The notes below the pieces were generated by a model, which saw only the letters and a list, made by a program, of their open reading frames with translations, was not told where the DNA came from and did no database searches. This document shows positions 4,008 through 50,412 of a DNA stretch of 64,000 bases, piece by piece (position 1 is the stretch's first letter; each line of letters starts with the position of its first letter). Both the position numbers and the translations under genes were made by a program. The stretch covers positions 24,010,517 to 24,074,516 of the forward strand of contig OX419755.1 in assembly GCA_948567375.1 (NCBI GenBank). The letters run 5' to 3'. The DNA comes from Lunularia cruciata. Its lineage: Eukaryota > Streptophyta > Marchantiopsida > Lunulariales > Lunulariaceae.

Positions 4008-4460
4008 TGTCACGCCATTTGTAGTTCCGCATCTAGATGCTTGGACACTGGAGTTCCAATGATAGTAGTTAGAGTTATTCTAGCAGTTTCTCAGAGACTA
4101 CTTTCGGACGGTTAGATTTTGTGTTTGGGGTACTGACTTCACAGTGGGGCCCACCGTCACTTTGCATCGTTTGCACCGTCGAGTGTGCCATCAGCGGGAC
4201 CGTTAGGGTTTCAGTGCTAGCTCGAGTCCATGGGGGTATAGTTTTGAAGTGAGCTCCAGAGAGCTCACTTCTCTGATGTTGAGCCTTTGAAATCTTGGCT
4301 ATGGTGGACAGAGGCCGGCGAGCGTCACCTGGATTCTCTATGCTTGAGTGGGTGTGGCTTGACTGTAATCAGTGCCCAATTGTTGGCAGTTTATAGAGTG
4401 ACAGATCAAGTACTGATCTGAGTTGAGTTGAGTTGAGTTGAAAGTGTTAAGCAATCTGAT
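4008..4460 (+). repeat. B1 5' terminal repeat X
   Basis: Starts TGTCACGCC and is homologous to 13332-13770 with roughly 3% substitutions plus small indels. It contains a (GAGTT)n microsatellite near 4419-4440 that is longer than in the 3' copy. After CTGAT the two copies diverge completely: this one runs into ACATCAGAG and the leader. The weak ATCAGAG match is all I see of a tRNA-Met-like primer site. Confidence 0.85.
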
Positions 4461-5653
4461 TACATCAGAGAAGTGAAGTCAAGAGGAAATCGGGTGCAGG
4501 AACGTTGAGTGTTGGTGGTATCTCCAAGCTTGGTGGATCGTGGTAGCTCAATTCAAGTTTTGTGTTTCCCTAGTGTGCAGAAGCTCGTTCAAGTGATGCA
4601 GATTTGGCAGTTAGGCGGACGGTGTGCGGAAGCGCTGGCCAAATTTCAAGCAAAGAAGGAGCAATTTTTGAGCAGTGTTGTGATTTTGAGCTCAAGAGGT
4701 GAAGGCATGACCAATTTGCTACGAGTTGGGCTCAGAAAGTCAAATTGAAGGTAGAGTTGGGAAGCTCTTCTCATGAAATTGTGATTTGGCTATTGTGAAA
4801 CCCGTTTTGATTGTGAAACCCGTTTTGTCAATTTGGCTCGAGTGGAAAGTTAGCGGGGGATTTGGCGGACAGCCATCTTTAGGGTTTACGTCAGATTTTA
4901 CGTCAGATTTTGGGCCAGATTTGGAGAAGTTTTGCCAATTTTGGAGGAGGTTTCGAAGTGGCAACAAGAAAGGCCTCATTTGGCTGAATTTTGGCGTTTA
5001 GAGGCATAGGGCTGTGGGCTATGAGAGGCTACGAAGGCCTAGAAGGGCCAGCAAGCCAGCTTGCTGGCATGAGGCTAGCTAGTTTAGAGTAGATCTTGGT
5101 CATTGGTTAGCAAAATCTGCCTTTCTTGCTAGATTGTGCGCAATAGGGTTTGACCCCTAGATCTCTTGTTCCTAGACTGGTGCCCTAGCCAACTGGTCCA
5201 CCCTCACTTGTTGTCCTAGTGATTGCGCCACTGTTATCTATACGCATGTAGCTTTGGCTAGGAGAGGCAGTTTGATCCCATTCTTGGTGATCCTGGTAGC
5301 TTAGGACTTAGATACGAACAGCTCTTATGTCAAATGCCAAATGGTGGCAGAGTCAGTCCCGTGTTGTGTTATGAGATGGAGGGTTTTTGTTTAGATTTCT
5401 TGTGATTGGATCCCCTCCATTCTCTACTTCCTATTTGTGTGAGGTGCCTTGACTTTTGAGCGTTGGTGCTCTAGTGTGCTCTTGGTGGTGAGGCTGGAGT
5501 GATGACTAGTCAGACTACCTTTGTTTCTCTCCGGTGAGGCAGGAAGTGATGACCTGCAGACCGTGAGAGTGCGTGTTATGATGGCAGGTTACAGGTTGCC
5601 TTTCCCCTAGTGTAGTTATCTCGGTTAGAGTTACATTAGTGGGTGGTGTCTAG
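4461..5653 (+). other. B1 untranslated leader
   Basis: About 1.2 kb between repeat X and the gag frame with no persuasive coding. Bm carries the same leader in reverse at about 37140-38150, and 63745-64000 holds a divergent copy. It contains the tRNA-like segment described separately. Short open frames at 4509-4748 and 4786-5001 show no family resemblance. Confidence 0.6.
5146..5232 (-). other. tRNA-like (SINE-head-like) segment in B leader
   Basis: Read on the minus strand this has GGACCAGTTGGCTAGGGC, resembling a tRNA D-arm/A-box, and about 30 bases on GGGGTCAAACCC, resembling a T-arm/B-box. Anticodon-arm spacing is roughly tRNA-like, but a proper acceptor stem directly flanking it is not evident. 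The Bm leader keeps it at about 37580-37655. It is more likely a tRNA-derived fragment than a working tRNA. Confidence 0.4.
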
Positions 5654-7890
5654 TTGGTGTTTGCACGTGGTGGTGTTGGCAGTTGGTGGGGCACTTGTGG
5701 TTGTGACTTGCGGTTGCAGTTGGTGGTTCGGGTTTGCTGTTGCAGTTATGTGGTCACGACAGAGTTCTTTGGAGATTCCAAAGGAGTTAGCTCTGCAGCA
5801 CGCAGTGGGTTTACTTGGAGGGGTGCTCGGTATCAGCCTGTATCTCAGGTCCCAGTGAGGGAGGAGATTGACTCTGAGTTGGAGTTTGACACAGGAGCTG
5901 ATTCAGTTGAGAGTGCACTTGGTGTGTCCGCACCATTGTTGTGGGACATGGACAAGATTTATGGGGTCTCCAAAGGCCTTAGGTGTTACTTTGGTATAAT
6001 GGGTACCATTGAGTTAGATGACTTCATCCAGGAGTTCGATAGTTGGTGTGATCTACAGCAGATGCGGAACCCGACTTTGTTCACACCCTTCATGGCATGG
6101 AAGGGGTTGTTTCAGTATCTGGAGGGTCCGCCGATGGATGATTACCATGAGTTCATGAGAGCTCATTTGGAGGAGATTGAGTTATGGAGATAGTATTGGT
6201 CCCCACACTATGTTTCCATCACTTTAGACTTGGTGGCCAGGAGTAGATCAGCTGTACCCACGAGTTCTAGCTCGAGTAGTGTTGGTGGAGCTAGTGGAGG
6301 TGCACTAGCTGGAGATAGTGCTACTACGAGTGGAGGTACCCTTGCAGGAGGTGGTGTGGTACCAGGGTTTAACCCCATGGTGGAGTTCTTCCTATGTTTG
6401 AGGCAGAACTACCAGGGAGTGTGGACTGACAAGCTGAGGAGCTTGCAGGAGTTCCAGCAAAAGGCTGGAGAGAGCCTACGCGAGGCATACACTCGCATGA
6501 GGCGGCTGATTAGTTTCACTCAGGGAGTTATTGAGGCCTAGGCAGTCCAGTTTTGGAATGGGATACTGGACAGGGAGTTGCGACGTAGAGTTCGTGAAGC
6601 TACGTTGCTGTAAGCTACTTTGCCCACTTTGGCAGTAGTCTTTGGTTTGGCTGAGCGTATTGAGCTCAACATGGTGGAGGAGAGAGTGGTGACATCTGGA
6701 TTTGGTAGGGAGACCTCATCCACGGCTGTGACTTCTTCTAGAGTACAACAGAGTGCACCACGCCCAGTTGGTTTTTGAGGATAGGGTGGACATCCCAGAT
6801 GCTATGGAGCGAGTGGAGGGCCTAGTGGAGTTAGACCCTTACCCTCATTTTTGGGTGAGCAATAGCCAGTGAGTGGTGGTGTTGCTTGTTGGACTTGTGG
6901 TGGACCTCACCATAGGAGAGAGTGTACTCAGGGCAGCGGACCTGATACCTTTGGTGCATCACAGCCAGCACAGAGGCAGTGTGAGGACTACCACAGATTT
7001 GGTCACACTAGTGACCTGTGTTTTGACCTACACCCGGAGTTACGGAGTGGTAGGGCTGCTATGGCAGGTAGTAGAGGAGCTCCAGTTCATGGAGGACAAG
7101 GTGGTAGAGGTGGTGGTAGAGGATCTACACCTAGTAGGGGTGTAGTACCTGCCCTTACTTCTAACACAGCTATGGCTACTCGGATTGAGGAGTTGGAGCA
7201 GAGATTGGCTAGTATGGCTATTGCTCAGAGGAGATCAGATTCGGGTGCTGAGGCTTCCACCTCATATGCTGGTGATAGAGATGCTTTGGACTTCATGTGC
7301 GGAGCAGCATAGGTGGATGCATCTACAGCAGTGACTAGGAGTGCAATACGTGCTCTAGAGCCTAGAGGAGCATCAGTGGAGTTGGACCCATAGAGAGGAG
7401 AGGTTGGGAGACACGTCAGACTTCCCCAGTCTTTCACGCTATCTGAGGCATTGTAGACGACATCCATGGTTCCTAGACGTCCCAGTGCAGGTGTGGTAGG
7501 TGGTGATGGAGTACATGATGGACTACCTGCTAGTCAGCCACCTACTACTACACAGACTGAGTCTAGCATGATGTTGGGGGCGGCTCAGCCGATTATGCGG
7601 CGTCCTTTGTTTCCAGCCAGTGACATGCTTACATTGGGAGTTGACCCAGCCCTAGTGTTCCGGTTGGCTGCCACATTGTGTGAGAGTAGAGATGGTGCAG
7701 TTCCTACTACTAGAGTAGAGGTGGTTGGTAGTGGAGCTGACTTGGTTGAGGAGCATGGGATTCGTTCAGCAACCAATGGTTTATGGCAGGCAGTAGCGGC
7801 TAGACTGGAGGAGTTGCCAGCTAGACCGGCCTTTGAGAGAGCGCGGTTTACACCTGGTGTTGTCCTATTGGATAACCAGAGGGGGATTTT
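5654..7890 (+). pseudogene. B1 gag (capsid + CCHC), broken
   Basis: Reading frame 2 gives a retrotransposon gag: an N-terminal segment (FIQEFDSWCDLQ), a Ser/Gly/Ala-rich linker (6250-6350), a capsid-like core (FQQKAGESLREAYTRMRRL, near 6440-6520) and a nucleocapsid with CWTCGGPHHRREC near 6890. A second knuckle, CEDYHRFGHTSDLC, has Tyr where Cys is expected. A Gly/Arg-rich tail and a short coiled-coil (IEELEQRLASMA) follow. Stops lie at 6191, 6539, 6611, 6776, 6782, 6863, 7310, 7391 and 7454. A run of seven T at 7887-7893 has one more base than Bm and shifts the frame. Confidence 0.82.
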
Positions 7891-8333
7891 TTTGTTTGGT
7901 GGGACCTTCAAGGAAGGTCTTTACACCACAGAGAGTCTTGTTAGACTCTGGTGTGCAGCTCCTTATGTTGGAGAGGGCTGCAGTTGTTGGTCTGGAGTTA
8001 CGGAAGACCAATGTGGAGAGATGTCCATTTCAGATCCAGACATCTCTAGGTGGTGGTTTGACACAATACATCACATGTGGGGAGCTTGTTGTCCAGGTTT
8101 AGCCTGGTCATCCGACTGATAGCTCGGTGGTGAGAGCTCAAGCTATTGCGACAATAGCTGAGTCATATGATGTGCTAGTTGGGGGAGCAGTGTTATACCC
8201 TATGGGTTTCAGCATTGACTATTGGGAGGAGACAGCCTCTTATAGACCCGGTTGGCAGTCTGGTGAAGGACGAGTATATCGCCTACCAGTACGCCTTAGT
8301 AGTTGCAGTCTTGGCTCACTATAGTCTGGGACC
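7891..8333 (+). pseudogene. B1 aspartic protease region
   Basis: In frame 0 the motif LLDSG, with Asp at 7944, is the retropepsin active site. Downstream ESYDVLVGGAVLYPMGF resembles the retropepsin C-terminal hydrophobic strand with a small insert. Bm reads the same protease in one frame with the preceding segment (29193-28969, then 25241 onward), which shows that the frame break in B1 is secondary. A stop at 8322 separates it from the methyltransferase. Confidence 0.72.
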
Positions 8334-9941
8334 ATGGCAGCATCAATTTTAGCTTTCAGCGGTGCAGTTACTTGGCCTGGTGACTTGTTGGAGGGGAATG
8401 CCCATGCAGAGGATACTCCAGTACCAGAGGAGATCACTCAACTTTGGAGTACAAGTGGGATTGTTCCATCCACCTTGGATGTTCCATTGTGGAGTTCAGA
8501 GGAGACATTGCAGCAACATGCAGATCAGTTGGTGCAGCAGGCTTGGAGTGGAGCCTTTGTACCATCAGGGGATGAGTGTGAGGATGAGCCTCCAGAGGCG
8601 ATGACTTTGACACCTCTGGATACCACACTCATTGCTTGGCAGTATCCAGTAGAGGAAATATGTCTATTGGAGTTGTTTGGTGGGATCAGCACCGGACTAG
8701 CTGCGGTGTTACATGTGGGTATACGAGTACAGAGGTACTTGTATGTAGAGAGAGATGAGACCGCTAGGCAAGTCTCTCTACATCATGTGGCACACTTGGC
8801 CTATCGGTATCCGGAGTTATTATCGATGTCAGCAGTCAGAGGTTACCACAAGGCCTTACCAGGAGACATTTCCTTACAAGGAGCGCATGACCTAGAGAGA
8901 CATGGGCCTATTCACTTGGTGATTTCTAGATGGCCATGTCAGGGACATACACATGCGGGCCACGGTTTGGGTCTTCAAGATCCTCGTTCTGGTGTGTTTT
9001 GGGAGATGTTACAGATACTACGACATCTCCAGGTTCATCAGTCTGTTTCTCCAGCTTACCTTTTGGAGAACGTTCCATTGATGGGTGATTCTTGCACTAG
9101 AGTGGTGGCGAGTACACATCCGGTCCATTCATGGATGGGACCTGCTGTATTGTTAGATGCAGCCAGAGTGGGATCACGGGCTCATCGTCTTTGTCTTTGG
9201 TGGACAAACCTCTTACCCAGAGAGGTTCTACAGTGTAGTTATGATGGGATTCAGCGACTAGACCACATTCTTGTTGATGATATCTTGGATGCTGGACGTC
9301 AGTCTCAGACACTGGTAGTGGCTGATAGGTCACCTATGGCAGTGGTGAACCTAGTTGGACAGCCTAGAGCTGCATTTCCCACACTCATGAGTTTCCCAAG
9401 CTCTCATGCTTTTCGAGAGGAAAGACCTGGACTTGTTTGGGACTCACAGTTACAGCATTTGGTGGAGCCCAATGCTGATGAGAGAGAGCGGGTGATGGGT
9501 TTTTGCACTGGTATTGCCGCTGTTCCAGTAGTGTCAGAGGCATCTAAGCGTCAGGTGTTAGGTCAGGCTATGGACCTAAACTATTTGACCTGGATTGTGA
9601 GCCTTGGCTTGGCAGAGCAGCATAGGATGCGCTTGATAGGCATCACCACTCGGACACTTGTGAGCCCTGTGCCTATCGAGACAATTCAGGCACATGCTGG
9701 GGGCAATGGACCGAGTGGACAGGGTATTCTTGGGACACATCCAGTAGCTACTAGGGAGAGTGGTCTACTTGGAGTCCATCCAAGTGAGCGTGGGCTACTT
9801 GGATTACACCCTTGGTCCACATGGGATGCAGCTAGAGGACGTGTGGAGCTTGCAGCCAGAGTGGAGGGAGTTTTTCACACAGAGGTTGGGACCTCTAGTG
9901 GTCGGAAGCATGACACTATTGCTCCCAAGGGCCCTGTATAG
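8334..9941 (+). CDS. B1 C5-cytosine DNA methyltransferase domain, DNMT3-like
   Basis: A 535-codon open segment between protease and RT. Motif I is LLELFGGISTGL (near 8664), the S-adenosylmethionine loop. Motif IV is RWPCQG with the catalytic Cys at codon 202 (8937). Motif VI is LENV with Glu at codon 245 (9066). Motif VIII-like GSRAHRLCLWW follows near 9170, then a target-recognition stretch with FPTLMSF, and motif IX/X-like RERVMGF...LGQAMDL near 9490-9580. The fold would transfer methyl groups to cytosine C5. Spacing and the GI-TGL form of motif I resemble DNMT3/DRM rather than MET1 or CMT. Its start Met is an artefact of a stop at 8322; it was part of the polyprotein. Whether it is still expressed is unknown. 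Confidence 0.85.
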   Translation: MAASILAFSGAVTWPGDLLEGNAHAEDTPVPEEITQLWSTSGIVPSTLDVPLWSSEETLQQHADQLVQQAWSGAFVPSGDECEDEPPEAMTLTPLDTTLIAWQYPVEEICLLELFGGISTGLAAVLHVGIRVQRYLYVERDETARQVSLHHVAHLAYRYPELLSMSAVRGYHKALPGDISLQGAHDLERHGPIHLVISRWPCQGHTHAGHGLGLQDPRSGVFWEMLQILRHLQVHQSVSPAYLLENVPLMGDSCTRVVASTHPVHSWMGPAVLLDAARVGSRAHRLCLWWTNLLPREVLQCSYDGIQRLDHILVDDILDAGRQSQTLVVADRSPMAVVNLVGQPRAAFPTLMSFPSSHAFREERPGLVWDSQLQHLVEPNADERERVMGFCTGIAAVPVVSEASKRQVLGQAMDLNYLTWIVSLGLAEQHRMRLIGITTRTLVSPVPIETIQAHAGGNGPSGQGILGTHPVATRESGLLGVHPSERGLLGLHPWSTWDAARGRVELAARVEGVFHTEVGTSSGRKHDTIAPKGPV

Positions 9942-9953
9942 CAGCCAGTCAGT

Positions 9954-11708
9954 ATGTCTTCCACTCGTACTACAGTTACAAAGGATACTTGGGAGCCAGA
10001 TCTTGGACCCAAGCTTACTAGAGAGGAAAGACGGAAGGTTTGGAGGTTCTTGAGGAGTCACACGAGTTGTTTTGCCTTCAGTATGAAGGATTTGGGTGCT
10101 CTGAAGGGACCTAGGATACGGATTGAGCTGACTAGCAACACACCAGTTTTCTGACGTCCTTATCGATATAGTGAGATAGAGAGGACATTGATTCAGAGCC
10201 GGAGTAGTGACCTTTTTGAGGCTAGTTTGGTAGAGATTTCACATGGAGAGTATGCATCAGCAACAATGATGCCAACCAAGAAGGATATGCATGGCAACTA
10301 TACAGATAGGCCGATGTGTGGAGATTACCGTCCTATCAACTGACAGACTAGGGCTAATCGGTATGCCATGCCTACACCGGAGGAGATTTTTGATGCAATT
10401 GGGCATGCAAAGGTCTTTAGTACTTTGGATCTTCGAGCGGGATATCATCAGTTGCCGATCAGGGAGGAGGATAAGTCCAAGACATCATTTTGGGCTATTG
10501 ATCCTCATGGCAAGGATGTGTTATATCAGTGGAAGTTCTTACCATTTGGGTTGAAGAACGCTCCCGCTGAGTTCCAAAGGGTCATGGATAGGATCCTAGC
10601 TGGATTGGATTTTGCTTGGTGCTATATTGATGACATTTTGGTTTATAGCACTACTGTGGAGGAGCATGAAAGACAGCTGTTGGAGGTGTTTGAGAGGTTG
10701 AGATCTCATGGACTCAAATTACATCCTGGGAAGTGTAGGTTCTTCCACAAGCAGGTTGAGTATTTGGGTCACACTATCTACCCCGGAGAACTTGGTGTTC
10801 AGCAGACCAAGGTGGAGGCTATTGCACATATTCCTTGGCCTACGGATGTGAGCAGAGTGCAAGCATTCCTTGGGTTGGCAAACTTCTATCGCCGCTATGT
10901 TAGAGGATTTAGTGCCATTGCCAAGGCCTTGACGAAGCTGACCAAGCTAACACAGGAGTGGTGTTGGGGAGATGAGCAGGAGAGAGCTTTTGTAGAGCTC
11001 AAGGAGAGGTTGACATCTGCTCCTATTTTGAGGAGACCGATCAGGGGACGACCATTTCAGGTTCATACTGATTGGAGTATGTTGGGGCTTGCAGCGGTGC
11101 TCACCCAGCATGATAATGAGGAGAAGGAGTTTGTGGTGGCCTATGCTAATCGCTCCAACAATTCAGCGGAGGCAAAGTATAGTTCATATGAGGGAGAGTG
11201 CTTGGCAGCAGTTTGGGTAGTAGCACATTTCCGATGTTACCTATTTGGTAACCCCTGCACTCTCATCACTGATCATCAGCAGCTGAAGTGGTTGATGGAG
11301 TCCGACAAGCTTTCAGGGAAGCTTGCATGATGGGCTCTGATTTTACAAGAGTATGATTTCACGGTTGTTCACAAACTTGGAGTGGTGAACCGTGATGCAG
11401 ATGGGTTGAGTAAAAACCCATGTCCCAGCCAACAAGATCAGACCGGAGCACGTTGGCATGGTGAGACAGATGAGGAGATAGTGCCAGGTTGGCATACATC
11501 GGCCTTTCTGTGTATATTTGAAGAGACTTTGGTGGTATCTCTCTCAGCGCATACAGGAGGAGTTATTGAGGTCACATATCCAGAGAGTGAAGATATTGGT
11601 ACAGTGCAGCGAGACATTCATGATGATGTTTTAGTGATGGACTATCTTTGCACTAGTGTTGTGGGTGGCACAGTTGGGGCCAAGGAGAGAGACTGTGTTC
11701 TTCAGTGA
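9954..11708 (+). pseudogene. B1 reverse transcriptase and RNase H
   Basis: Frame 0 continues into RT. The longest open part is 10368-11330. YIDD (10623-10634) is the RT catalytic centre, with LDLRAGYHQLPI upstream and FLGLANFYRRYV downstream. RNase H is visible as HTDWSMLGLAAVL (normally TDAS) and TDHQQLKWL. Stops at 10152, 10341, 11328 and 11706 break the frame. Comparison with B2 shows that most were CGA or CAG codons. Confidence 0.88.
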
Positions 11709-12650
11709 GCTAGACGGTTCAGATTGGAGGGTAGACACCTTTTGCATGTATAAGAGGATGGTAGAGTGCAAGTAGTACCACTTCCATCACAGAGACCATA
11801 GTTGGTCCGTCATGCTCATGAGGAGCTAGGACATTTTGGAGTAAAGCGTACATATAGCTTACTTCAGAGTCATTATTGGTGGCGCGGTATGCAGACCAAG
11901 GTGCAGTAGTTTGTTGCCAGATGTGTGGTTTGTGACCAAGTTAGAGCATCATTCAATGCTCCTACGCCACAGTTACACCCATTACCTATCATGGGATTGA
12001 GTTACCGTTGGAGTTTGGACTTTGCCGGACCTTTACCGCTGACTATGAGACATCATCGGTATGTTTTGGTGTTGGTGGAGCACTTCTCCAAGTGGATTGA
12101 GTTGGTGGCACTTCTTGACAAGTCTAGTGAAGGGACAACTAACTCATTCCTGGATCGAGTTCTTAGTCATTTTGGTGCACCTGCTGATGTTTTGATTGAT
12201 CAGGGTATAGAGTTCTTGGGAGAGTTTCAGGTCTTGTGTGACAAGGCTTTGATTGATCATTGTATTACATCCCGAGATCACCCTGAGGCAGATGGCTTAG
12301 CAGAGAGAGTGGTTCAGATGGTGAAGAGAGGATTGCAAAAGTATGGTTTGCAGAGAGGCCACTTGGGAGATTGGGATCTCCAGTTACCTTGGTTGGCCAT
12401 GGGCTATCGGTTCAGCCGGGAAGCCTCCTTAGCATCCTTCTCTCCATACTTTCTACTCTATGGACGAGATCCAGATTTACCTGCAGCCATTCGTCAAGAT
12501 GCTACTGTAGTTTTGGACTTGGATGATCCCGATGTATGGATGAGTGCATGTTCTCAGCGGGCAGAGATCTTTTGGAGAGTGATGCCGATGGCCTTTGAGA
12601 ACTTGGCGATTGCTCAGCATAGAGATACTTTACGCTATGCTACCATTTGA
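11709..12650 (+). pseudogene. B1 DDE integrase
   Basis: The zinc-binding HHCC region (HAHEELGHFG...CVVC) lies at about 11810-11935. The catalytic core has Asp at 12018 (LDFAGPL), Asp at 12198 (LIDQG) and Glu at 12303 (GLAERV), with 59 and 34 residues between them. This rules out a tyrosine-recombinase element. Stops at 11751, 11799, 11907 and 12648 disrupt it; the core from 11925 to 12650 remains open. Confidence 0.88.
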
Positions 12651-12668
12651 GGAGGAGGTTATAGACCC

Positions 12669-13055
12669 TTGATCTGTCGATTTCATCTAGGCGACTATGT
12701 ATATCTACAACAGATAGCATCGATGACACTTGATGTTTCTATAGGCCGCACTATCTTGAGAGTGCGTGAGGTTTTGCCATTTGGAGTCCTTGTGTTAGAA
12801 GGACGTGATGGTGTTGTTTGGAAGGATCATGTGCGCAATTGTGCACCATGCCACCTCCCAAACATTGATGGTACTATGGACCCAAGCTTGGCACTTGTAC
12901 GTGCAGGCTTGAGGTGTATGTTATGTGGCTCTTCTGGTGGAGCTGCTACTATGTTAGTGTGTGATAGCTATTTGAGAGGATGGCATATGGCATGTATGAC
13001 TCCTCCCCTCACGGTGGTTCCTCAGGAACAGTCATTATGTCCTAGATGTACTTGA
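12669..13055 (+). CDS. Integrase C-terminus with PHD-like finger
   Basis: A 128-codon open segment. The first half (RFHLGDYVYLQQ...RTILRVREVLPFGV) is the GPY/F-like integrase C-terminal domain. The second half is a C4HC3 PHD-type pattern: Cys at 12915 and 12924, Cys at 12960, His at 12984 in GWHMAC, Cys at 12993, and CPRC at 13038 and 13047. The fourth Cys is replaced by Tyr (CDSY, 12969). Copy B2 keeps CDRC there. PHD fingers commonly read histone H3 tails, so a targeting role like that of chromodomains in chromoviruses is plausible but inferred. Confidence 0.72.
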   Translation: MICRFHLGDYVYLQQIASMTLDVSIGRTILRVREVLPFGVLVLEGRDGVVWKDHVRNCAPCHLPNIDGTMDPSLALVRAGLRCMLCGSSGGAATMLVCDSYLRGWHMACMTPPLTVVPQEQSLCPRCT

Positions 13056-13210
13056 CCTATAGCTAGTTCATTCTTGATATGGTATAGATTGTAGACAGAT
13101 GACTAACGATGGGGCTCCATAGCACCTGGCCTCCTGATCTTTGCCCATTAGAGGGTATACCATATACTTAGAGTAGATGGCTATCTGGAGTTAGAAGGAC
13201 CTAACCGCCA

Positions 13211-13224
13211 GCTAGGGGGGCAAT
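13211..13224 (+). promoter_or_regulatory. B1 polypurine tract
   Basis: GCTAGGGGGGCAAT directly precedes TGTGGCAC of repeat Y. A purine tract at this place normally primes plus-strand DNA and marks the start of the 3' LTR, which would make Y, not X, the U3 start. Confidence 0.6.
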
Positions 13225-13331
13225 TGTGGCACTTTAGAGTCTATGTATGACTTACGTGTGAGTTGTGCTTCTATAGTGTATGATGTTGATAGCAATGTAT
13301 GTTGTATAGCAATGTATATACACACGACAAC
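13225..13331 (+). repeat. B1 3' repeat unit Y
   Basis: 107 bp starting TGTGGCACTTTAGAG, homologous to 13771-13875 with a handful of differences. It sits between the purine tract and the 3' copy of X. B2 has the same Y-X order at 50005-50412. It is absent upstream of X at the 5' end of B1 and of Bm. Confidence 0.82.
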
Positions 13332-13770
13332 TGTCACACCATTTGTAGTTCCGCATCTAGATGCTTGGACACTGGAGTTCCAATGATAGTAGTTAGAGTT
13401 ATTCTAGCAGTTTCTCAGAGACTACTTTCCGACGGTTAGATTTTGTGTTTGGGGTACTGACTTCACGGTGGGGCCCACCGTCACTTTGCACCATCGAGTG
13501 TGCCGTCAGCGGGACCGTTAGGGTTTCAGTGCTAGCTCAAGTCCATGGGAGTATAGTTTTGAAGTGAGCTCCAGAGAGCTCACTTCTCTGATGTTGAGCC
13601 TTCGAGTTCTTGGCTATGGTGGACAGAGGCCGGCGAGCGTCACCTGGATTCTCTATGCTTGAGTGGGTGTGGCTTGACTATAATCAGTACCCAATTGTTG
13701 GCAGTTTATAGAGTGACAAATCAAGTATTGATCTGAGTTGAGTTGAGTTGAAAGTGTTAAGCAATCTGAT
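13332..13770 (+). repeat. B1 3' terminal repeat X
   Basis: 439 bp, homologous to 4008-4460. About fourteen substitutions by eye imply an appreciably older insertion than A2. It is followed directly by Y' instead of the ACATCAGAG leader. Confidence 0.85.
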
Positions 13771-13875
13771 TGTGGCACTTTAGAGTCTATGTATGACTTA
13801 CGTGTGAGTTGTGCTTCTATAGTGTATGATGTTGACAGTGATGTATGTTGTGTAGAGATGTATATATGCACAACA
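13771..13875 (+). repeat. B1 terminal repeat unit Y'
   Basis: 105 bp copy of Y that forms the right end of the element, finishing GCACAACA. The next bases, GCTTGCC, belong to A1, so the boundary is precise. Confidence 0.82.
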
Positions 13876-13892
13876 GCTTGCCTTCTAGAGAG

Positions 13893-13910: not shown

Positions 13911-13914
13911 AAAA

Positions 13915-14604: not shown

Positions 14605-16195
14605 GACCCAAATACTCATCTTGCTTGTGGAAGAACTTCCTAGGATGTTATTTGAGTCCATGAGATCTCAACCTCTCAAACACCTCCAACAAATGTCTCT
14701 CATACTCTTCCATAGTAGTGCTTTGGACCAAAATGTCATCAATATAGTAGCAAGCAAAATCCAATCCAACTAGGATCCTATCCATGACCCTTTGGAACTT
14801 AGCAAGAGCATTCTTTAACCCAAATGGTAAGAACCTCCACAGATATAACACATCCTTGTTATGAAGATCAATAGGCCAAAATGTTATCTTGGACTTATCC
14901 TCCTCTCTAATTGGCAATTGATGATATCCTACTCAAAGATCCAAAGTACTAAATACCTTTGCATGCCTAATCATATCAAAGATCTCCTATGTTGTAGGCA
15001 TGGCATCCCAATCAGCCCTAGTCTATTGGTTAATAGGACAATAATCTCAACACATCCACCTATTTGTGTAGTGCCATGCATATGCTTCTTGCTAGCATCA
15101 TTGTAGTTGATGCATACTCTCCATGTGAGATCTTCACCAAACCAACCTCAAAAAGGTCACTACTCCAGCTCTGAATCAATGCTCGCTCCATGTTACTATA
15201 TCTATAGGGACATTAAAAAACTGGTGTATAGCTAGTAAGCTCAATCCAAATACCAAGTCCCTTTAGAGCATCCAAATCCTTTATATTGAAGCCAAGAAAT
15301 CTTGTATAGCTCCTCAAAAACCTCCAAACTCTTCATATTTTCTCTCTTGTAAGCTTGGCTCCAAAATCTAGCTCCAAGTATCCTTTGTAACTATTGTAGG
15401 AGTGGAAGACATACTGATTGGTTGCTACACTAGACCTTTGGAAGCAATAGTGTCATGCTTCCAACCACTAGAGGTCCCAACATCAATGTGAAAAACTCTC
15501 TCTGATCTGGCTGAAAGCTCCATACATCCTCTAGCTGCATCCCAAGTAGACCAAGGGTGTAATCCAAGTAGCCCACGCTCACTTGGAAGGACTCCAAGTA
15601 GACCACTCTCCCTAGTAGCCACTGGCTATGTCCCAAGAATACCTTGCCCCCCCTGATCCATTGCCCCTAACATGTGCCTGAATTGTCTTGATAACCACAA
15701 AGCTCACAAGTGTCCAAGTGGTGATGGCTATCAAGCATATCCTAGGCTGCTCTACCAAACCAAGTCTCATAATCCAAGTCAAACAATTTAGGTCCATAGC
15801 CGGACCTAACACCTGATTCTTGGATGCCTCCAACACTATTGGAATAGCAGTAATACCAATGCAAAAACCCATCACCCTCTCCCTCTCATTGGCATTGGGC
15901 TCCACCAACTACTATAATTGTGAGTTCCAAACCAATCCACAACCTCCCTCTCAAAAAGCAAGGGAGCTTAGGAAACTCATAAGTGTGGGAAAAGTGGCTT
16001 TGGGCTGTCCAACTAGGTTCACCATTGCCATAGGTGACCTATCAACCACTACCACCATTTGAGACTAACACCCAACATCCAAGATGTCATCAACAATAAT
16101 GTGATATAGTCATTGAATCCCATTATAAGCGCGTTGTAGAACCTCTCTAGGTAGGAGGTTCATCCACCAAAGATGAAGACAATGAGCTCGTGATC
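14605..16195 (-). pseudogene. Bm methyltransferase C-part and RT N-part
   Basis: Minus-strand frames match B1 9172-10760. The motif IX/X-like NERERVMGF and LGPAMDLN are at 15908-15760, and RT up to YIDD at 14917-14648. GIAVIP-like changes and stops show decay. A2 interrupts it at 16196 with a GATC duplication. Confidence 0.82.
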
Positions 16196-16886: not shown

Positions 16887-16890
16887 TTTT

Positions 16891-16908: not shown

Positions 16909-16927
16909 CTCTCTAGAAGGCAAGATA

Positions 16928-24021: not shown

Positions 24022-25241
24022 GATCCCACTCTAGTTGCATCTTAAAACACAATAGGTCTCATCCAATAATGGACCTGATGTGTACTTGCCACCACCCAAG
24101 TGCAAGAATCACCCATCAAAGGGATGTTCTCCAAAGTTAAGTATGAGAAACAAACTAATGAACTTGGAGATGTTGCAATATTTATAACATCTCACAAAAC
24201 ACACCAAAGCAAGGATCTTGAAGACCTAAACCTTGACCAACACGTATATCTCCCTAACATGGCTATCCAAAAATCACTAAATGAACAGGCCGATGTCTCT
24301 CCAAATCATGCGCCCCCATTAAGGAAATAGTTGATGGTAGGGCCTTTTGGTAACCCCTAATTGCTGACATTAGTAATAACTCAGGATATCAATAGGCCAA
24401 GTGTGCCACATGATGGAGAGAGACTCATCTAGCAATCTCATCTTTCTCCACATACAAGTACCTATGTACTTGTATACCTGCTTATAGTACCATAGCTAGT
24501 CTAATGCTAATCCCACCAAACAACCCTAATAGGCATGCTCCCTTTATTTAGATATTGCCAGGCAATGAGTGTGATATCCAGAGGTGTCAAAGTAATCAAT
24601 TCTAGAGCCTCAACCTCACACTAGTCGCCTAGTGGTACAAAGGCTCCACTCCAAGCATGTTGCACCAATTGATTTTCATGCTACTGCAATGCCTCTTCTT
24701 AACTCCACAAAGGAACATCCAAGGTGGATGGAACGATCCCACTCATACTCCAAATCCAAGTGATCTCCTTTTGTATTAGAGTATCCTCTGCATGGGTGTT
24801 CTCCTCCAATAAATCACCAGGCCAAGTAACAAAACCATTGAAAGTTGAAACTAAAGCCGCCATTGTTCCAAACTGTAGTGAGCCAAGATTGGCACTATTG
24901 AAGCATACTGGTAGACAATATACTATTCCTTCACCAGACTGCCAACCTGGTCTATAGGAGGTTGTCTCCTCCCAATAGTCAAAATTGAAACCCATGGGAT
25001 ACAACACTACTCCCCCAACTAACACATCAAATGACTCAGCTAGCCATAGTTAAAATAGCCTAAGCTCTCACCACAAAGTTATCAATCACATGACCAGGTT
25101 GAATCTAGACAACAAGCTTTCCACATGTGATGTATTGTGTAGAACCACCTCCTAGAGATGTTTGGATCTGAAATAGACACCTCTCCTTATTGGTCTTTCG
25201 TAACTTCAAATTGACAACTATAGCCTCCTCCAACATAAGGA
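24022..25241 (-). pseudogene. Bm protease C-part and methyltransferase N-part
   Basis: Corresponds to B1 7960-9175. The minus frame at 25025-24699 reads LVGGVVLYPMGFNFDYWEE, matching the protease tail, then the linker LWSMSGIVPSTLDVPLW. The methyltransferase start follows towards 24022 with stops. C1 cut it at 25242. Confidence 0.8.
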
Positions 25242-29873: not shown

Positions 29874-29877
29874 TTTT

Positions 29878-34320: not shown

Positions 34321-37300
34321 GTTCCTCAACCAAGTCAACTCTACTATCAACCACCTCTGTTCTAGTACTAAGAACCACATCATCCTTACTATCTATCACA
34401 AAGCATGGCAGCCAACCAAAACACTAGAGCTAGGTCAACTCCTGATGTACACATGTCATTGGCTGAGAATAATGGAAAGTGCATAATCAGCTAAGTTAAC
34501 CCCAACATAGTGCTAGACTCAATTTTTATAGTAACAGGTGGTTAACTCGTAGGTAGTCCATCATGCACCCCATGACCACCTACCACACTTGCACTATGAC
34601 GTCTAGGAGCTATAGATGTTGTCTGTAGTACCTTAGAGAGTGTAAAGGATTGAGGAAGTATGACCTGTCTACCCATCTCTCCTTTATGTGGGTCCATCTC
34701 CACTGATGCTCCTCTAGACTATGGAGCATGTACTGCACTCCTAGTCATTGGGGCAGATGCATCCACCTATGCTGCTCTGCACATGAAGTCTAAGATGTCT
34801 CTATCACCCGCATATGAGGTGGAAGTCTTAACACCAAAATCTGATATCCTTTGAGCTATGGTGTAATACTCCGAGGACAAGAGAAGAGAGAAAACACAGA
34901 TTTCACACTCAAACATTTGATGCCCCAAAGGAGCACCTTCTCTTTATTATATAGACAAAGAGGATCTCCTCCAAGGAAGCTCTACCATAGGATTAGGGAC
35001 ATAGATAGATGACATGTCAGCAAGCTCCACCCTTGGATTACTTACTTGGATGGGCGACATGTCTGGTCTAGGTCCTATCTAGTTGGTCAAACAAGCTTTG
35101 ACCGGAGGGAGTCTTTTAGGGAATCTTCTTGTAGGAATCTCAGAATCACGTGAGGAAGGTACCATTGGAAAGCTCTTGACTAGACAAAGCAGAGGGGGAG
35201 TAAAGGCTAGCCTTGCCTCTATTGGGGGGGGGGATTTGCACATTTTTGAGGCCTAATTCATCCGTTTAGGCCTCCAAAATTGCCTTCAAAGATTTCAGGC
35301 ATATTTCGGTTCCTACTCTATTAGTAGAAGTTCCCTTCTGGTGATACCTCTTTCTAATCTTTTTAGTCCATCATGTGTAACATCCTTCTAGATGTTACCA
35401 AACCAATTCTTCAACCTTTAAATCATATGTCTAGCTATTGGTTCTAAGGTTCTCAAGTCTATTTTGGTTTCTGCCCTATTAGTAGAAGTAGTCTTTTGGT
35501 GATACTTCTATCTTATCTATTTTGACCATCAAGTATAACATCATTCTAGATGTTACCAAACCAAATTTCACATCTAGATCATATGGCTAGCTCTTGGTAT
35601 TACATATGGCCAAGTTGACCAATGTCTGCTCCAACTACTCAATCCAAGTAGCCATGGTTGTATCATAAGTAAGGGCTGGTACAACACCTCTACTAGGTGT
35701 GGATCTTCTACCACCACCTCTACCATCTCATCCTTCATGACCTGGAGCTCCTCTACCACCTACCATAGCAGCCCTACCACTCCGTAACTCTGGGTGTAGG
35801 TCAAAGCATGAGTTACTTGTGTGACCAAATCTTTGGCAATACTCACACTATCTTTGTGTTGGCTGAGATGCACTAGAGATATTAGGTCTATTGCCCTAAG
35901 TTCACTCTCTCTTATGATGAGGTCTCCCACAAGCCCAACAAGTAACACCACCACTCATTGGCTATTGTTGACCCAAAAACAAAGGTAAGAGTCTGGCCAC
36001 TCTATGCCCTCTACTCACTCCATAGGGTTTAGGGTATCCATCCTGTCCTTAGAAACCGGCATGGCGTGGTGCACTCTAGAAGAAGTAACAATTGTGGATG
36101 AGGTCTCCCTACCAAATCCAAATGTCACCACTCTTTCCTCCATCATGTTGAGCTCAATATGCTCAGCCAAACCAAAGACCACTGCCAAAGTAGGCAAAGT
36201 AGCATGTAGCATGTAGCATCACAAACTCTACATCACAACTCCTTGTCCAATATCCCATACCAAAACTAGACTACTTGGGCCTCAGTACCTCCCTAAATAA
36301 AATTGATCAGCTATCTCATGCAAGTGTATGTCTCTTGTAGGCTCTCTCCAGCCTTCCATTGAAACTTCTACAAGCTCTACAAACTGTCAATCCGCACTCT
36401 TTGGTAGTTTTGCCTCAAACATTAGAAGAACTCCACCATGGGGTTAAACTTCAATACTACACCACCTCTTGTAATAGGACCTCCATTCATAGTAGCACCA
36501 TCTCCAAAAGATCCACTCTAATGCTACTAGAGCTATAACTTGTGGGTATTTCCAATCTACCCTTAGAAACTATGCTTGAAGTGATAGAAATATAGTTCAT
36601 AGACCAATACTATCTCCATAGCTCAATCTCCTCCAAGTGAGCTCTCCTGAACTCATGGTAGTCATCCATCAATAGACCCTCCAAGTGTTGAAATAAACCC
36701 TTCTATGCCATGAAGGGTGTGAACAAAGTTGGGCCCCGCATTTGGTACAGATCACACCAACTATCAAACTCTTAGATGAATTCATCCAACTCAATGGTAC
36801 CCATTATACTAGAGTAATGCTTGGGACCTTTGGGTCCCATAAATCTTGTCCATGTTCCACAACAATAGTGCGGACACACCAAGTGCACTCTCAATTGAAT
36901 CAGCTCTTGTGTCAAACTCCAACTCAGAGTTAATCTCCTCTCTCACTAGGACATGAGATATAGACTAATTACAAGCACCACTCCGAGTAAACCCACTACG
37001 TACTATAGCACTATCTCCTCCAAAATCCCCAAAGAACTTCGTTGTGAAAAAGTAACCAAGAGCTACAACTTGCAACCAAAACCTCCGCAAGTACCCCACC
37101 AAGTGCCAACACCACCAAGTGCCAACACCTCCAACTAAATAGAGCTCAACTAATGCAACTCTAACTACAAAAACTATACTAGGAGAAAGAGAAACCTATA
37201 ACCTACCATCACAACACGCACTCTCATGGTCTGCAGTCATCACTTCTTGCCTCACCAAAGAGAAACATAGGTAGTTTGACTGGTCATCACTCCAACCTCA

Positions 37301-38595
37301 TTACCAAGAGCACACCAGAGCACCAACGCTCTAAAGTCAAGGCACCTCATACCAACATAGTGCACAAATAGGAATCAAAGAATGGAGGAGGTCCAATCAC
37401 AAGAAAGCTAAACAAAAACCCTCCATCTCATAAATCAACATTGGATTGACTTTGCAACCATTTGGCATTTTACATAAAATGAGTTATCTACTTCCAAGCT
37501 ACCAAGATTACCAAGAATGAGATCAAATTATCTCTCCTAGCCAATACTATAGATGTATAGATAATAGTAGAAAAATCACTAGGACAACAAGTGAGTGTGG
37601 ACTTATTGGCTAGGGCACCAGTCTAGGAACCAAAGATCTAGGGGTCAAACCATGTTACATACAATCTAGCAAGATGTGCACATTTTGCTAAATAATGACC
37701 AAAACCTACTCTAAACTAGCTAGCCTCATGCCAACAAGCTGGCTTGCTGGCCCTTCTAGGTCTTTGTAGCCTCCCATAGCCCTATGCTTTGAAGCCTCTA
37801 AATACCAAACAAGGTCTTTTTTCAAATCTGGCAAAACTCCTCCAAATCTGTCCAAAATCTTCAATTTTACTTTATGAGCCCAACTCGCACCAGATCCCAT
37901 GCTTTCACCTCCTAAGCTCAAAATCACAACCATTGCTCAAAAATTTCTTCTCTTTGCTTGAAATTTGGCCAGTGCTTCTGCACACTATTTGCATCATTGC
38001 CAAATCTACATCAATTAAACAAGCTTTTGCACACTAGGGAAAACCTAAACTCCGATCGAGCTACCAATGATCAGTGAGTCTTGGAGATATCACAAACACT
38101 CTCAATTCTTACATCCAATTTCCCCCTAACCTCACTTCTCAGATGTAATCAGTTTGTTTACACAACTTGAATCACAATCAATCAAATTAATACTTGATTT
38201 GTCACTCAATGACCTGCCAACAATTGGGCATTGATAACAATCAAACCACATCCACTATATCTAAGAGAATCCAGGTGATGCTCACCGGCTTCTGTCCACC
38301 ATAGCCAAGAACTCAAGGGCTCAATATCAAAGAAGTGAGCTCTCTAGAGCTACACTTTGAAAGTATACCCCCAAGACTTGAGCTAGGTCTCAAACTCTAA
38401 CGGTCTCGCTAAAGGCCCACCCAATGGTCCAGACAGTGCAAGTGACGGTGGGCTGCACCATGTAGTTAGTATTCCAAACACAAAATCTCTCCGTCAACAA
38501 AAATTCTATGAGTAACTACCAAAATACTCCTAACTACCAACACTACTACTCTAGAGTCTGAGCAATCTAAGTGCAATGCTACAAATAGCATGACA
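34321..38595 (-). pseudogene. Bm 5' half: repeat X, leader and gag, interrupted by F
   Basis: Repeat X runs from 38595 (TGTCATGC on the minus strand) to about 38160, then the leader with the tRNA-like segment, then gag to 34321. Gag traces include LRSGRAAM near 35780, AMERI/AERIELN-like LAEHIELNMMEERVV near 36150 and the CCHC segment near 35930. Stops are frequent. The 5' end starts at the same TGTCA as B1 with no Y in front, confirming B1's terminal layout. Confidence 0.8.
34862..35604. mobile_element. F, 743-bp solo LTR
   Basis: TGTAATACTCC...GGTATTACA with an inverted terminal TGTAATAC/GTATTACA and a perfect 5-bp duplication TATGG (34857-34861 and 35605-35609). It interrupts Bm gag. A ~154-bp segment is tandemly duplicated inside it (about 35297-35450 and 35457-35600; both copies contain CTAGATGTTACCAAACCAA). 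There is a G homopolymer near 35225. No coding was seen, and strand cannot be set. Confidence 0.75.
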
Positions 38596-39796
38596 TTAGC
38601 CATGGTGGGAGCTCTTATTGCCATTGCACATCAATGAAAGACCAATGCTTGTAAGCTCTATAAGGTGATAAAGGTCCATTGGCAAAAGTAGGAGGTGAGA
38701 ATGATTGGGAAGATACACATGGCTTCTCTTCTTTATAGAAGTCTCATGTTGTCTCTTTATGAAGACCATCAAACTGATGATGAAGACAAAAAAAAGCCTC
38801 CAATGCTAACCAAATGAAGTTATTGAATGCAAGCCATGGTTTATTATGGTTCTCCTTCTCCTTGGTGGTGATGATCAATGTTGCTCTTGCTTGCATGTTA
38901 GCTATTATTGAGAACTTTGATCATAGTGGTTTTGCTACCAACACATCAAATAAGGCACATTGGCCATCTATGAATGAGACAATATTTTCTTTTACCCTCC
39001 AAGGACGTGGGCCTAGCAGGTCTAACCATCACTCAATCTAAACCTAAGAAAAGTAAATTGTAAGATTTGGTCCCATTGCATCTCAAATAGCATTATAAAG
39101 TCTAGTGGGTTCTCCATATTTGGCACAATAAAAATATGGATTCCATGTGTGTTGCACAATCTGCTTCACACTATTCTAGTAGTCTTAGCCCTAAAAGTGC
39201 TGGATATGATTGTCATAATCAAAGGCAAATAGTTGTGGTAAAATCCTTTCATATGTACTCAATAAATAGAGAGGCATGGAGCCAAGCACAATAGCCTTTC
39301 CTTCTACAAGAAAGAATCCTAAGTCTATTATGTTAAGGCACATCAATGCAGATGTTGTAAAGGGTGTGAGTGTGTGTATATTCACTAAGATTTGCCTAAA
39401 TCTTCATAAAGTTTGGGGATACAAAGTCCAAAAATAGGAAGAGTGTTGCGCATGCAAGTCTTGGTAGAAGGTCACAAGCAAAACAAAGAAATGTCTAGAA
39501 AGCATGGGTGCATAAATCTATTGTCATGAAAGAAGCCAAAAAAGGACAATTCTTGTATAAGAAACTATTTGCCAATAAAAGAGCCACTAGGGTCCATGAT
39601 CTTAAATAGGTTATTGGTGCAATAGCCTCTTTCAATATGAGACCACAACCTCCCATGACTATGTGAAGATCTATCTACAATTTGCAATCTACACCACTTC
39701 TTTGAGAATTATAAGAGCATACTTACTCCTAATAAAATAGAGAAAATATGGCATATAGCATTATCAAGGGCACATAGACAAGGTACAAATACCAAT
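38596..39796. other. Unassigned 1.2 kb
   Basis: DNA between the 5' end of Bm and the truncated start of B2. Open frames are short (38814-39041 plus, 39385-39191 minus) and show no motif I recognise. Weak minus-strand reading such as LLGPRPWRVKENIVSFIDGQ is broken by stops. It is probably an old element remnant or ordinary intergenic DNA that received Bm. Confidence 0.4.
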
Positions 39797-40232
39797 GTTA
39801 TGACATCTCCAAGTTCATTAGATCGTTTCTCCAACTTACATTTTGGAGAACGTCCCTTTGATGGATGATTCTTGCACCCACGTGGTGGTGAGTACACATC
39901 AAGTCCATTCTTGGATGACACCTATTATTTTGTTAGATGTAGCCAGAGTGGGATCACGGGCTCATTGTCTTTGTCTTTGGTGGATGAACCTCTTACCTAG
40001 AGAGGTTCTACAAATGTGCTTATGATGGGATTCAACGACTATACCACATCATTGTTGATGACATCTTGGATGTTGTGCGTTAGTCTCAAATGGTGGTAGT
40101 GGCTGATAGGTCACCTATAGCAATGGTGAACCTAGTTGGACAGCCTAGAGCCACTTTTCCCACACTCATGAGTTTCCCAAGCTCTCATTCTTTTTGGGAG
40201 GGAGGTCATGGATTGGTTTGGGACTCACATTT
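39797..40232 (+). pseudogene. B2 methyltransferase middle part
   Basis: Keeps LENVPLMDDS (motif VI) near 39843 and the motif VIII-like GSRAHCLCLWW near 39950, then the target-recognition stretch ending FPTLMSFPSSHSFWE. Stops interrupt it near 40024. The start is truncated within the domain. Confidence 0.82.
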
Positions 40233-42565: not shown

Positions 42566-43358
42566 TAACCGATTTGAGATTTGAAGGGGCAGATATGAAG
42601 AGGTGCATTGTCATTTTGGATCTGCAGGTTAGAACAGTTGTGGTAGAACGGTGTAGTTGTTAGAATTGTCGATTGCTTCACTATTTATGAGTGGCGTTCG
42701 CAGTATTATGTTGTTCAGTGCTCATTATTTCTGAGAATAGATAAAGCGAAGTGCTGTGAAGCAGTGCTCGTTGCTTGAGCTTGATTCCAAGTATCAACTT
42801 TGCAATTGTGTTTGTGAGTGTTTGGAGAAATTTGAAGTGCAAGTCAGAGTGCTTGTTGGATGTTGGATTCCACAGCCTTGATCTTCATTCTGTGTGTGTT
42901 GATCCTGAGTGAAGTGCAATCGAAGCAATGCCTTGACAGATCTGAGAGGAATTGTAGTGTTGGTAGTATTCTGCATTTGTGAGTGCAGTGCGAAGTTGAT
43001 GTGAAGCAGTTTCAATCAAGGAAGTTGTGCCTTCAGTGGAGGGGTGGAACACAATTCTAAGGCGAAGTCGTTTTGCAGTGAAGTGCTATTTTTGGGAGAG
43101 CCTGAATCATCACAATCAAGATTGGTTGGAAAGATTTGATGGAGTTGTGATTATGGAGTGTTAATTTGTGACAAGACAAGAGTCAGTGCTTGTTACTCTC
43201 TTCTGGATGTGGTTTCTACCTGAGAGATTGAAGACGCAACCAAGAAGAACTGAAATTGTTACTTTGCTTCGTATTTGGACATTTCTGACTCGTATCTCTG
43301 CGGGAACGAACTTTACTTACCCAATTACCGCAAAAGTGATATTTGCCGGGTTGTCACA

Positions 43359-48235: not shown

Positions 48236-48626
48236 GCAGATTTGTGTTATGAATTGTGACTAGAGTTGAGGAAACTCCATTCTAGGATCTCTCAGTCTGG
48301 TCCAGGTGAAAAGCATAATTAAATGATCTGAGTGCCGGATTTATGTTCAGTTAGATCACTCAGTTGTTGTTTATTTTATTTTATCAAAGGGCCACCGGAC
48401 CTAGGTCTATGAACTGCCAGATCCCAAACCATAGCTTGAACCTGACAAGAAAATAGGATATGAGACCAAGCAGAGGTAGAAACCATAACACCAGCCTTGC
48501 ATGACAAGATTGGTTTTACGAAAGTCAAGGATAAAACAAAATCTTCAGGGTGAGTCAACCTCAGAAAACTAAGCACAAGCAGCCATGTGCTCGGCGCACT
48601 CTCAAGACCGAACGTTCCCCACGACA

Positions 48627-50004: not shown

Positions 50005-50412
50005 TGTGGCACTTTAGAGTCTATGTATGACTTATGTGTGAGTTATGCATCTATAGTGTATGTTGTGTAGCAATGTATATATGCATGACAATTGTCATGC
50101 CATTTGTAGTGTTGCATCTAGATTGCTTGGACACTGGAGTTGCAATGAAAGAAGTTAGAGGTATTTTAGCAATTACCCATAGACTACATTCTGACAGTCA
50201 GATTTTGTGTTCAGGGTATTGATTTCATGGTGGGGCTCACTGTCACTTTCACCATTTGCACCGTTGGGTATGCTATTAGTGGGACCGTTAGGGTTTCAAA
50301 CCTAGCTTGAGTCCAAGGATATACTTTCAAAGTGTAGCTCTGAAGAGCTCATTTCTTTGATGTTGAGCCTTTGAGTTCCTGGCTATGGTGGATAGAGACT
50401 AGAGAGTGTCAC
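50005..50412 (+). repeat. B2 3' repeats Y and partial X
   Basis: Y at 50005-50092 and X from 50093 (TGTCATGCC), truncated at 50412 by the left end of D. Same Y-X order as B1. Confidence 0.8.

Follow-up and report, generated by a model that had tools for sequence, protein, structure and literature searches.

Klebsormidium nitens has a Gypsy element, and dinoflagellates have DIRS elements, in which Dnmt3-type cytosine methyltransferases (MTs) have been described (de Mendoza et al. 2018, PMC5890265). In the K. nitens element, KnitGypsy-Dnmt3, a Dnmt3-related MT with unrearranged motifs lies inside the Gypsy Pol polyprotein of a streptophyte host, and purifying selection acts on its MT domain (Ka/Ks < 0.2). 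The repeats of this element are DIRS-like in arrangement and its authors place the acquisition in the K. nitens lineage; the accessible part of their paper mentions neither a PHD finger nor a leaky stop for it, and has 0 occurrences of 'Marchantia' (PMC5890265). SymbioDIRS-Dnmt3 and SymbioLINE-Dnmt are also retrotransposons with cytosine MTs, but belong to other classes. SymbioDIRS-Dnmt3 produced de novo CG methylation in yeast; KnitGypsy-Dnmt3 produced no methylation there, a result that the authors call inconclusive (PMC5890265).

A 2025 survey cites DNMT3 in LTR Copia and DIRS elements, with streptophytes and dinoflagellates as hosts (PMC12344493). A 2019 paper listed many further eukaryotes, green algae and charophytes among them, whose retrotransposons have methylases of adenine or cytosine type, and stated that transposon DNA methylases are absent from land plants such as tracheophytes (PMC6338049). 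The accessible text of a Marchantia review has 0 mentions of 'retrotransposon' (PMC9516144). In the titles and opening abstracts that our searches of the openly licensed PMC literature matched, we found no land-plant case of such an MT element, of a PHD-ended gypsy or of stop suppression in one, and reports elsewhere are possible.

Here we describe a family of this kind from Lunularia cruciata. The window, that is the whole stretch analysed, comprises 64,000 nt (GCA_948567375.1, contig OX419755.1, 24,010,517-24,074,516, forward strand), and sequence comparison confirmed that its positions 8334-9941 encode a C5-cytosine methyltransferase domain within a Ty3/gypsy element. The element has ordinary LTRs, where KnitGypsy-Dnmt3 has DIRS-like repeats, and its family spans bryophytes, Closterium and a Mesostigma-labelled sequence, where the acquisition of KnitGypsy-Dnmt3 was placed in a single lineage. 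Compared by description only, KnitGypsy-Dnmt3 is the nearest published case, and the two may be one family.

The element and its methyltransferase

The host element of the MT ORF, copy B1, is an LTR Ty3/gypsy retrotransposon at about 4008-13770 (Table 1). It has paired LTRs and the Ty3/gypsy order of protease (PR), reverse transcriptase (RT), RNase H (RH) and integrase (IN), with PR recognized by its LLDSG motif only. The same order is present in protein P0090 and in L001, the one DNA relative reported among genome contigs; none was reported in viral contigs. L001, a contig of 9285 bases with an overlap of 127 bases between its ends, belongs to a cyanobacterial MAG, and by its content it is evidently eukaryotic contamination of that MAG. 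B1 is 62.5% identical to ORF2 of L001 over 459 columns of RT-RNase H, and 65% identical to L001 over 405 columns of integrase plus PHD finger.

Table 1. Features of element B1 and of the copies Bm and B2 in the window
Feature	Position	Strand	Basis or remark
5' LTR of B1, without about its first 100 bases	4008..4461	+	94% identity to 13332-13771
gag region, CCHC-like knuckles (CWTCGGPHHRREC), stops within	5654..7312	+	frame reading; likeness by eye to P0074, P0078, L001
Aspartic protease (PR) region, VLLDSG, frame shared with MT ORF	7935..8330	+	frame reading
MT ORF (P0001) of B1	8334..9941	+	single ORF exactly, 535 aa; Pfam and PDB matches
MT domain proper, motifs I to X	8628..9620	+	family profile envelope 99-429 of ORF; dN/dS
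Stop TAG CAG CCA in UAG CAR YYA (TMV type I) context	9939..9947	+	divides Gag-PR-MT from RT, one frame
RT and RNase H, in MT frame, stops present	9942..11330	+	PF00078 4.5e-31, PF17919, PF17917
Integrase: H2C2 region (by eye), core, C-terminal part, stops	11802..12860	+	PF00665 2.1e-9
PHD finger, integrase C terminus	12897..13052	+	PF00628 3e-6, 27.6 bits, cut-off 24
Likely polypurine tract AGGGGGGCAAT, directly before 3' LTR	13214..13224	+	read from sequence; inference
3' LTR, start TGTGGCACTTTAG	13225..13770	+	repeat comparison; exact ends inferred
Bm PR and first MT part, stops	24022..25241	-	81.6% identity to 7960-9175
Bm remaining MT, stop site TAG CAA CCA, RT start	14605..16195	-	85% identity to 9172-10770
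Bm LTR and gag part	35619..38595	-	blastn to 4008-4750 and 5016-7208
B2 middle of MT, cut by insertion	39790..40232	+	85% identity to 9010-9451
B2 MT end, TGG CAG CCA at leaky-stop site, RT-RH	43357..45748	+	87% identity to 9445-11848
B2 integrase, PHD region, 3' LTR	48626..50397	+	blastn to 11845-13628

B1 is a fossil, as it has several stops in pol, and it is not a new insertion, as its LTRs (4008-4461 against 13332-13771) share 94% identity; of the 454 aligned columns 13 are mismatches, and the other differences are gaps. The bases just upstream of 4008 show no match to the start of the 3' LTR. Pfam matches cover 10368-11330 for RT and 11925-12650 for integrase. The gag region of B1 gave no Pfam gag match, and the gag match of P0078 is under its cut-off; at PR, PF13650 scores above its cut-off in P0076 and P0144 and below it in P0074 and L001. 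For the primer-binding site, the searched part of the initiator-Met tRNA complement had no exact match in window positions 4401-4700 or in L001. No tRNA genes or Rfam families were found in the 64-kb window.

The initial annotation had read C5-methyltransferase motifs, in order, between protease and RT, and this reading stands: the LLDSG protease lies upstream, RT downstream and motifs I to X between them. The proposed search with PF00145 gave 23.8 bits (E 3.5e-5), above the curated cut-off of 22. Searched as a single sequence with phmmer, the ORF had DNMT3A as its top PDB match (1.3e-6), and 29 of its 30 PDB rows were DNMT3A, B or C, the remaining one being HaeIII at 0.34. The motifs run LELFGGISTGL (I), WPCQG (IV), LENVP (VI) and AHRLCLWWTN (VIII), followed by ERERVMGF and LGQAMD, and they align to DNMT3A, the final part weakly. 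In plant DRM enzymes the motifs are rearranged, whereas in the B1 MT they stand in the unrearranged order I to X, as in DNMT3.

A profile of the family, built from a 55-row alignment of the window domain and 54 relatives, was run against the PDB. DNMT3A, B and C occupied ranks 1-29 of its 56 matches, at 85 to 62 bits, and the next row scored 39. This was 4onj (39 bits), followed by 4onq (34), HaeIII (31), DRM2 and HhaI (24 each) and DNMT2 (16); the PDB rows of 4onj and 4onq say only 'DNA methyltransferase', and we take both to be tobacco DRM. No row among the 56 was named DNMT1, CMT or MET1. By family profile, then, the C5 class nearest to the element MTs is DNMT3. P0147, the Mesostigma-labelled protein, searched alone had 0 DNMT3 rows among 44 PDB matches; its top row was 4onj (20 bits), followed by HaeIII and HhaI (18 bits each). 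No ADD or PWWP domain was found in the sequences scanned with Pfam, which sets the element MTs apart from cellular DNMT3, their nearest PDB profile kin with the same motif order. The label 'DNMT3-like' given by the initial annotation is thus apt for the family profile and the motif order, but not for motif IV, which is PCQ or ECQ where DNMT3A has PCN, nor for P0147 taken alone.

Motif counts bear on what the enzyme may do. Among 65 full-length domains, motif IV reads PCQ in 56 and ECQ in 4, the EN of motif VI is present in 54 and the AHRxR of motif VIII in 52; these are pattern counts, and they include pattern artefacts in one reading of motif IV and in some of motif VI. ECQ also occurs in P0147 and in the partial Closterium protein P0070. 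To our knowledge the Pro of the motif IV dipeptide is near-universal in C5 enzymes. The captured enzyme might therefore have taken on another role in the particle, such as nucleic-acid binding or RNA methylation, in place of DNA methylation, and the departure of motif IV from PCN and the lack of DNA methylation by KnitGypsy-Dnmt3 in yeast (PMC5890265) point the same way. We consider this unlikely, because the catalytic motifs are mostly kept and because the nearest profile kin are DNA enzymes, the tRNA enzyme DNMT2 reaching only its 16 bits.

In a 41-row MT tree, from which cellular plant DNMT3 and K. nitens are absent, one DNMT3A row and P0150 side with the element MTs against P0135 and P0151 (100/99), with long branches and a warning from the tool. 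The 37 element MTs group together at 84/82, a value that the program did not star and to which the same long-branch warning applies. The cellular parent of the element MT is not fixed by this tree; two profile searches for relatives returned no sequence named as a cellular plant DNMT3 or as K. nitens.

Copies, constraint and relatives

Three copies in the window, B1, Bm and B2, all carry the MT at the same place. Bm and B2 were broken by later insertions. The MT of Bm (minus strand) lies in two pieces, 24863-24021 and 16193-15428, parted by such an insertion, and that of B2 (plus strand) in the pieces 39795-40227 and 43356-43850, with the first part missing. Each has several stops and a frame change, and only B1 has the MT ORF open. 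The claim that the MT is a family trait of a Ty3/gypsy element was borne out by the Pfam match, the PDB profile ranks, the three copies, dN/dS and the relatives with a like arrangement. A host methyltransferase gene caught in the element by chance, or an assembly chimera, has next to no probability and was ruled out, since in the three copies, as in relatives on other contigs, the MT recurs at the same place and shares an ORF with PR or RT.

We estimated dN/dS between the copies, omitting codon pairs with a stop (14, 4 and 10 in the MT domain). For the MT domain the three pairs gave 0.34 (bootstrap 0.25-0.48, 315 codons), 0.46 (0.30-0.74, 198 codons) and 0.46 (0.29-0.78, 191 codons). RT gave 0.37, 0.37 and 0.54 for the three pairs, integrase 0.39 for one pair, and the part of the ORF ahead of the MT domain 0.46 for one pair. 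Constraint was not clear in the protease (0.58, 0.35-1.01, one pair) or in the C-terminal tail of the MT (0.60-0.88). The RNase H end and linker gave 1.02 (one pair), and the PHD finger 1.32 (0.48-4.63, 51 codons, one pair), which is likewise no clear constraint. These estimates rest on three old copies and, as the copies are old, include some neutral decay after insertion. The constraint on the MT domain resembles that on RT and integrase.

B1 itself has probably decayed, since its motif VIII reads AHRLC, with the second Arg gone, and SR stands ahead of WPC at a site where most relatives have AG. It is fairly probable that the three window copies carry the MT as a dead remnant with no present consequence: pol has stops or frame changes in all three copies, and both AHRLC and the 94% identity of the B1 LTRs fit this reading. 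It is compatible with the model proposed below, which concerns the family. Against it stand the long open frames of relatives (L001, P0090, P0074 and P0144) and the Marchantia branches in a 33-row tree, which are 0.012-0.19 long. These branch lengths are consistent with recent activity.

Relatives were sought in three protein searches, each scoring the 8000 candidates that share most words. Among the scored candidates they returned 72, 81 and 23 matches, in overlapping hit lists. Of the 72 entries in the first, 49 are without an organism name, one comes from a bacterial MAG and 22 are named as plants or algae: Marchantia (11), Calypogeia fissa (4), Sphagnum (3), Closterium (3) and Riccia (1). 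The later searches added three Marchantia proteins, for a Marchantia polymorpha total of 14, and one labelled Mesvir1, presumably Mesostigma viride. Many of the named entries are partial gene models, so their number is no count of element copies. Since the relatives with a name come from bryophytes and streptophyte algae, the comparison with flowering plants made in the initial annotation has no bearing here; that annotation did not include this distribution, nor the leaky-stop layout and the PHD finger described below.

The 33-row tree was rooted on two selected relatives. In it, the window copy and copies from liverworts and Sphagnum form one group (100/99), with the window copy close to its base. 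The 31-row set in question has 13 liverwort rows, 3 Sphagnum rows and 15 in neither group, the window copy being counted there. The 41-row tree agrees, with a window, liverwort and Sphagnum group of 9 rows (100/100). By its clade alone, the element would place its host among land plants, and no more narrowly. An RT tree of only 7 rows separates two other gypsy elements of the window from those with the MT (100/100).

The MT does not hold the same position throughout. It is placed after PR, as in B1, in P0074, P0076, P0144 and L001. A second layout is seen in P0136, where the order is RT, RNase H, MT, H2C2, integrase core and PHD finger. P0138, which starts behind RNase H, continues from MT to H2C2, integrase core and PHD finger, and P0065, its front cut, has MT then H2C2. 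The MTs of P0136 and P0138 have no PF00145 match but score 330 and 354 bits with the family profile, and P0136, P0138 and P0065 form one clade in the 41-row MT tree (100/99). The RT of B1 is 41% identical to that of P0136 and 33-34% identical to those of the two other window gypsies; its integrase and PHD finger are 41-45% identical to those of P0136 and P0138 over 406-415 columns, against 31% to the second gypsy over 211. This kinship suggests that, within one element clade, the MT has moved or was captured twice. A further protein, P0122, has an MT piece beside the integrase core; it matches neither of the two layouts and is presumably a damaged copy.

The stop codon and the PHD finger

In L001 the open frames can be read without interruption but for one stop. 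ORF1 encodes gag, CCHC, PR and MT, the last with a PF00145 score of 45.9 bits; a TAG follows, and ORF2 (RT-RH-IN-PHD) continues in the same frame. The sequence at this site is TAG CAA TCA in L001, TAG CAG CCA in B1, TAG CAA CCA in Bm and TGG CAG CCA in B2. CAR YYA is thus present in all four copies for which DNA is available and UAG in three of them, B2 having TGG with the hexamer kept. B1, Bm and B2 are one family in one window, so the stop context represents two separate lineages. For comparison, CAR YYA follows 5 of the 2121 TAGs found on the two strands of the window, counting those of B1 and Bm, and 2 of the 190 in L001, counting the one at this site.

In three of the four copies, then, UAG CAR YYA stands between two ORFs of the same frame, as in the type I site of TMV. 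The TMV methyltransferase is of an unrelated, RNA-capping type. What is common to both is the signal and the order, a methyltransferase upstream and a polymerase downstream (TMV 126K/183K), and the CAR YYA that follows UAG is essential for TMV readthrough (PMC2754532). Stop suppression is also described for the plant retroelement SIRE1, but there it serves the envelope-like ORF (PMC2829016).

We considered restart at a Met after the stop in place of readthrough. In B1 a Met lies five residues past the stop, so that a restart is conceivable there. In L001, however, no Met occurs for 116 residues; the first is residue 117 of ORF2. L001 and B1 align from residue 7, so a restart at Met-117 would lose conserved sequence. 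P0074, P0076 and P0144 are PR-MT proteins without RT, P0074 and P0144 with a gag-like front, and all three appear in keeping with a Gag-PR-MT layout. The leaky stop is not universal, since in P0090 and P0069 the MT continues into RT without a stop.

The PHD finger at the integrase end is also found in L001, P0045, P0136 and P0138; that of B1 has lost one zinc-binding Cys (CDSY for CDxC). Among the best 60 of 89 PDB matches of the L001 finger, the top ones are CHD4, PHF12, Cph2, KMT2D, an MLL3 homolog, KDM5A and UHRF1. Unmodified H3 tails are ligands of several of these PHD fingers, and the L001 finger, judged by eye, is without the Trp of the H3K4me3 cage. A histone-reader domain at the integrase end is, as a design, shared with chromoviruses, but theirs is a chromodomain and the one here a PHD finger with no chromodomain; the main text of a chromovirus survey has 0 mentions of PHD or methyltransferase (PMC6317226).

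A proposed model for the family

Based on these observations, we propose a model for what we consider an old green-lineage Ty3/gypsy family; on balance we believe it to be the best explanation, and a reasonably probable one. Its steps (readthrough, packaging, MT activity, substrate, histone binding and chromatin targeting) we infer from sequence. The first part of the model concerns expression. The main, abundant product would be Gag-PR-MT, encoded by ORF1, and at the TMV-type leaky UAG a minority of ribosomes would read on to make Gag-PR-MT-RT-RH-IN-PHD. As the MT is part of the ORF1 product, upstream of the leaky UAG, it may be packed into the particle at about the level of Gag and so be present where cDNA is made.

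The second part of the model involves the MT and the integrase. We propose that the substrate of the MT is most likely the newly made double-stranded cDNA, whose cytosines it would methylate ahead of integration; the copy would then arrive already marked like silent host DNA. The PHD finger of the integrase may lead the element to nucleosomes with an unmodified H3 tail. It is also conceivable that the MT acts on the host, either on chromatin near insertion sites or on host silencing, and not on particle or cDNA, as the same polyprotein carries a PHD finger and the MT is predicted to be in excess over RT and IN. We regard this as improbable, because fusion of the MT behind Gag and protease points to the particle. 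Methylation of the element's own DNA and modulation of host silencing had both been raised as possible functions in the initial annotation.

Beyond marking of the cDNA in the particle, a broader history can be put forward, although only tentatively and as something we would sooner doubt than accept. A single capture of a DNMT3-class enzyme by a PHD-ended gypsy, at or before the base of the streptophytes, could have founded a lineage that is still alive in land plants. Its MT would be made in the Gag product through the leaky stop and pre-mark the cDNA as silent, its PHD-integrase would steer insertion, and in a sister lineage the MT would have moved between RNase H and integrase.

DNMT3-bearing retrotransposons are already known from Klebsormidium and dinoflagellates, and the bryophyte relatives contrast with the statement that land plants lack transposon DNA methylases, as given in the accessible part of that paper (PMC6338049). 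The family poses a paradox, that of a mobile element making the very mark used for its silencing. The 14 Marchantia polymorpha entries, many of them partial gene models, bring this question into a genetically tractable plant. Two predictions follow from the layout: synthesis of the MT, controlled by readthrough, should reach the level of Gag, and the integrase should carry a histone reader.

Position and motif IV of the methyltransferase in relatives

In the sister clade formed by the protein relatives P0136, P0138 and P0065, the same DNMT3-like methyltransferase domain occupies another position in pol, where it follows RNase H and precedes integrase, and the PHD finger is retained in P0136 and P0138. 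RT is absent from P0122, where the methyltransferase piece continues straight into the integrase core; we take this relative to be a deletion copy.

Motif IV reads WECQ instead of WPCQ in P0090, P0136, P0138 and P0146, and also in the partial P0070 and P0147. This is an unusual substitution adjoining the catalytic cysteine.

Neighbouring repeats and a second gypsy family

The window also holds two copies of a different gypsy family, one of which has an open polyprotein of 1608 codons. The repeats of 690-730 bases are probably the LTRs of this second family, and they flank the insertions that split the minus-strand methyltransferase copy. Directly adjoining the 3' LTR of B1, the first methyltransferase element, its LTR starts a second time (~98 bases); this arrangement resembles an LTR-LTR junction, and the next element starts after it. 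By eye, the minus-strand overlapping ORFs, built from recurring phrases (SHFEIALLVQAQ, CPNPPASREFLLLPNPLLSN), form a tandem-repeat tract.

Repeats and elements in the window
Feature	Position	Strand
Second start of B1 LTR	13769-13866	
Copy of second gypsy family	18456-23282	+
Copy of second gypsy family	30583-33582	+
Repeat of common kind	13877-14606	
Repeat of common kind	16194-16924	
Repeat of common kind	23331-24021	
Repeat of common kind	29180-29911	
Repeat of common kind	33631-34320	
Overlapping ORFs	45870-47733	-

Retrotransposon sequence in bacterial MAGs

Retrotransposon sequence (contig L001, CADCWO010000201.1, and protein P0034) is deposited under cyanobacterial and Obscuribacterales MAGs, evidently as eukaryotic contamination of these public MAGs.
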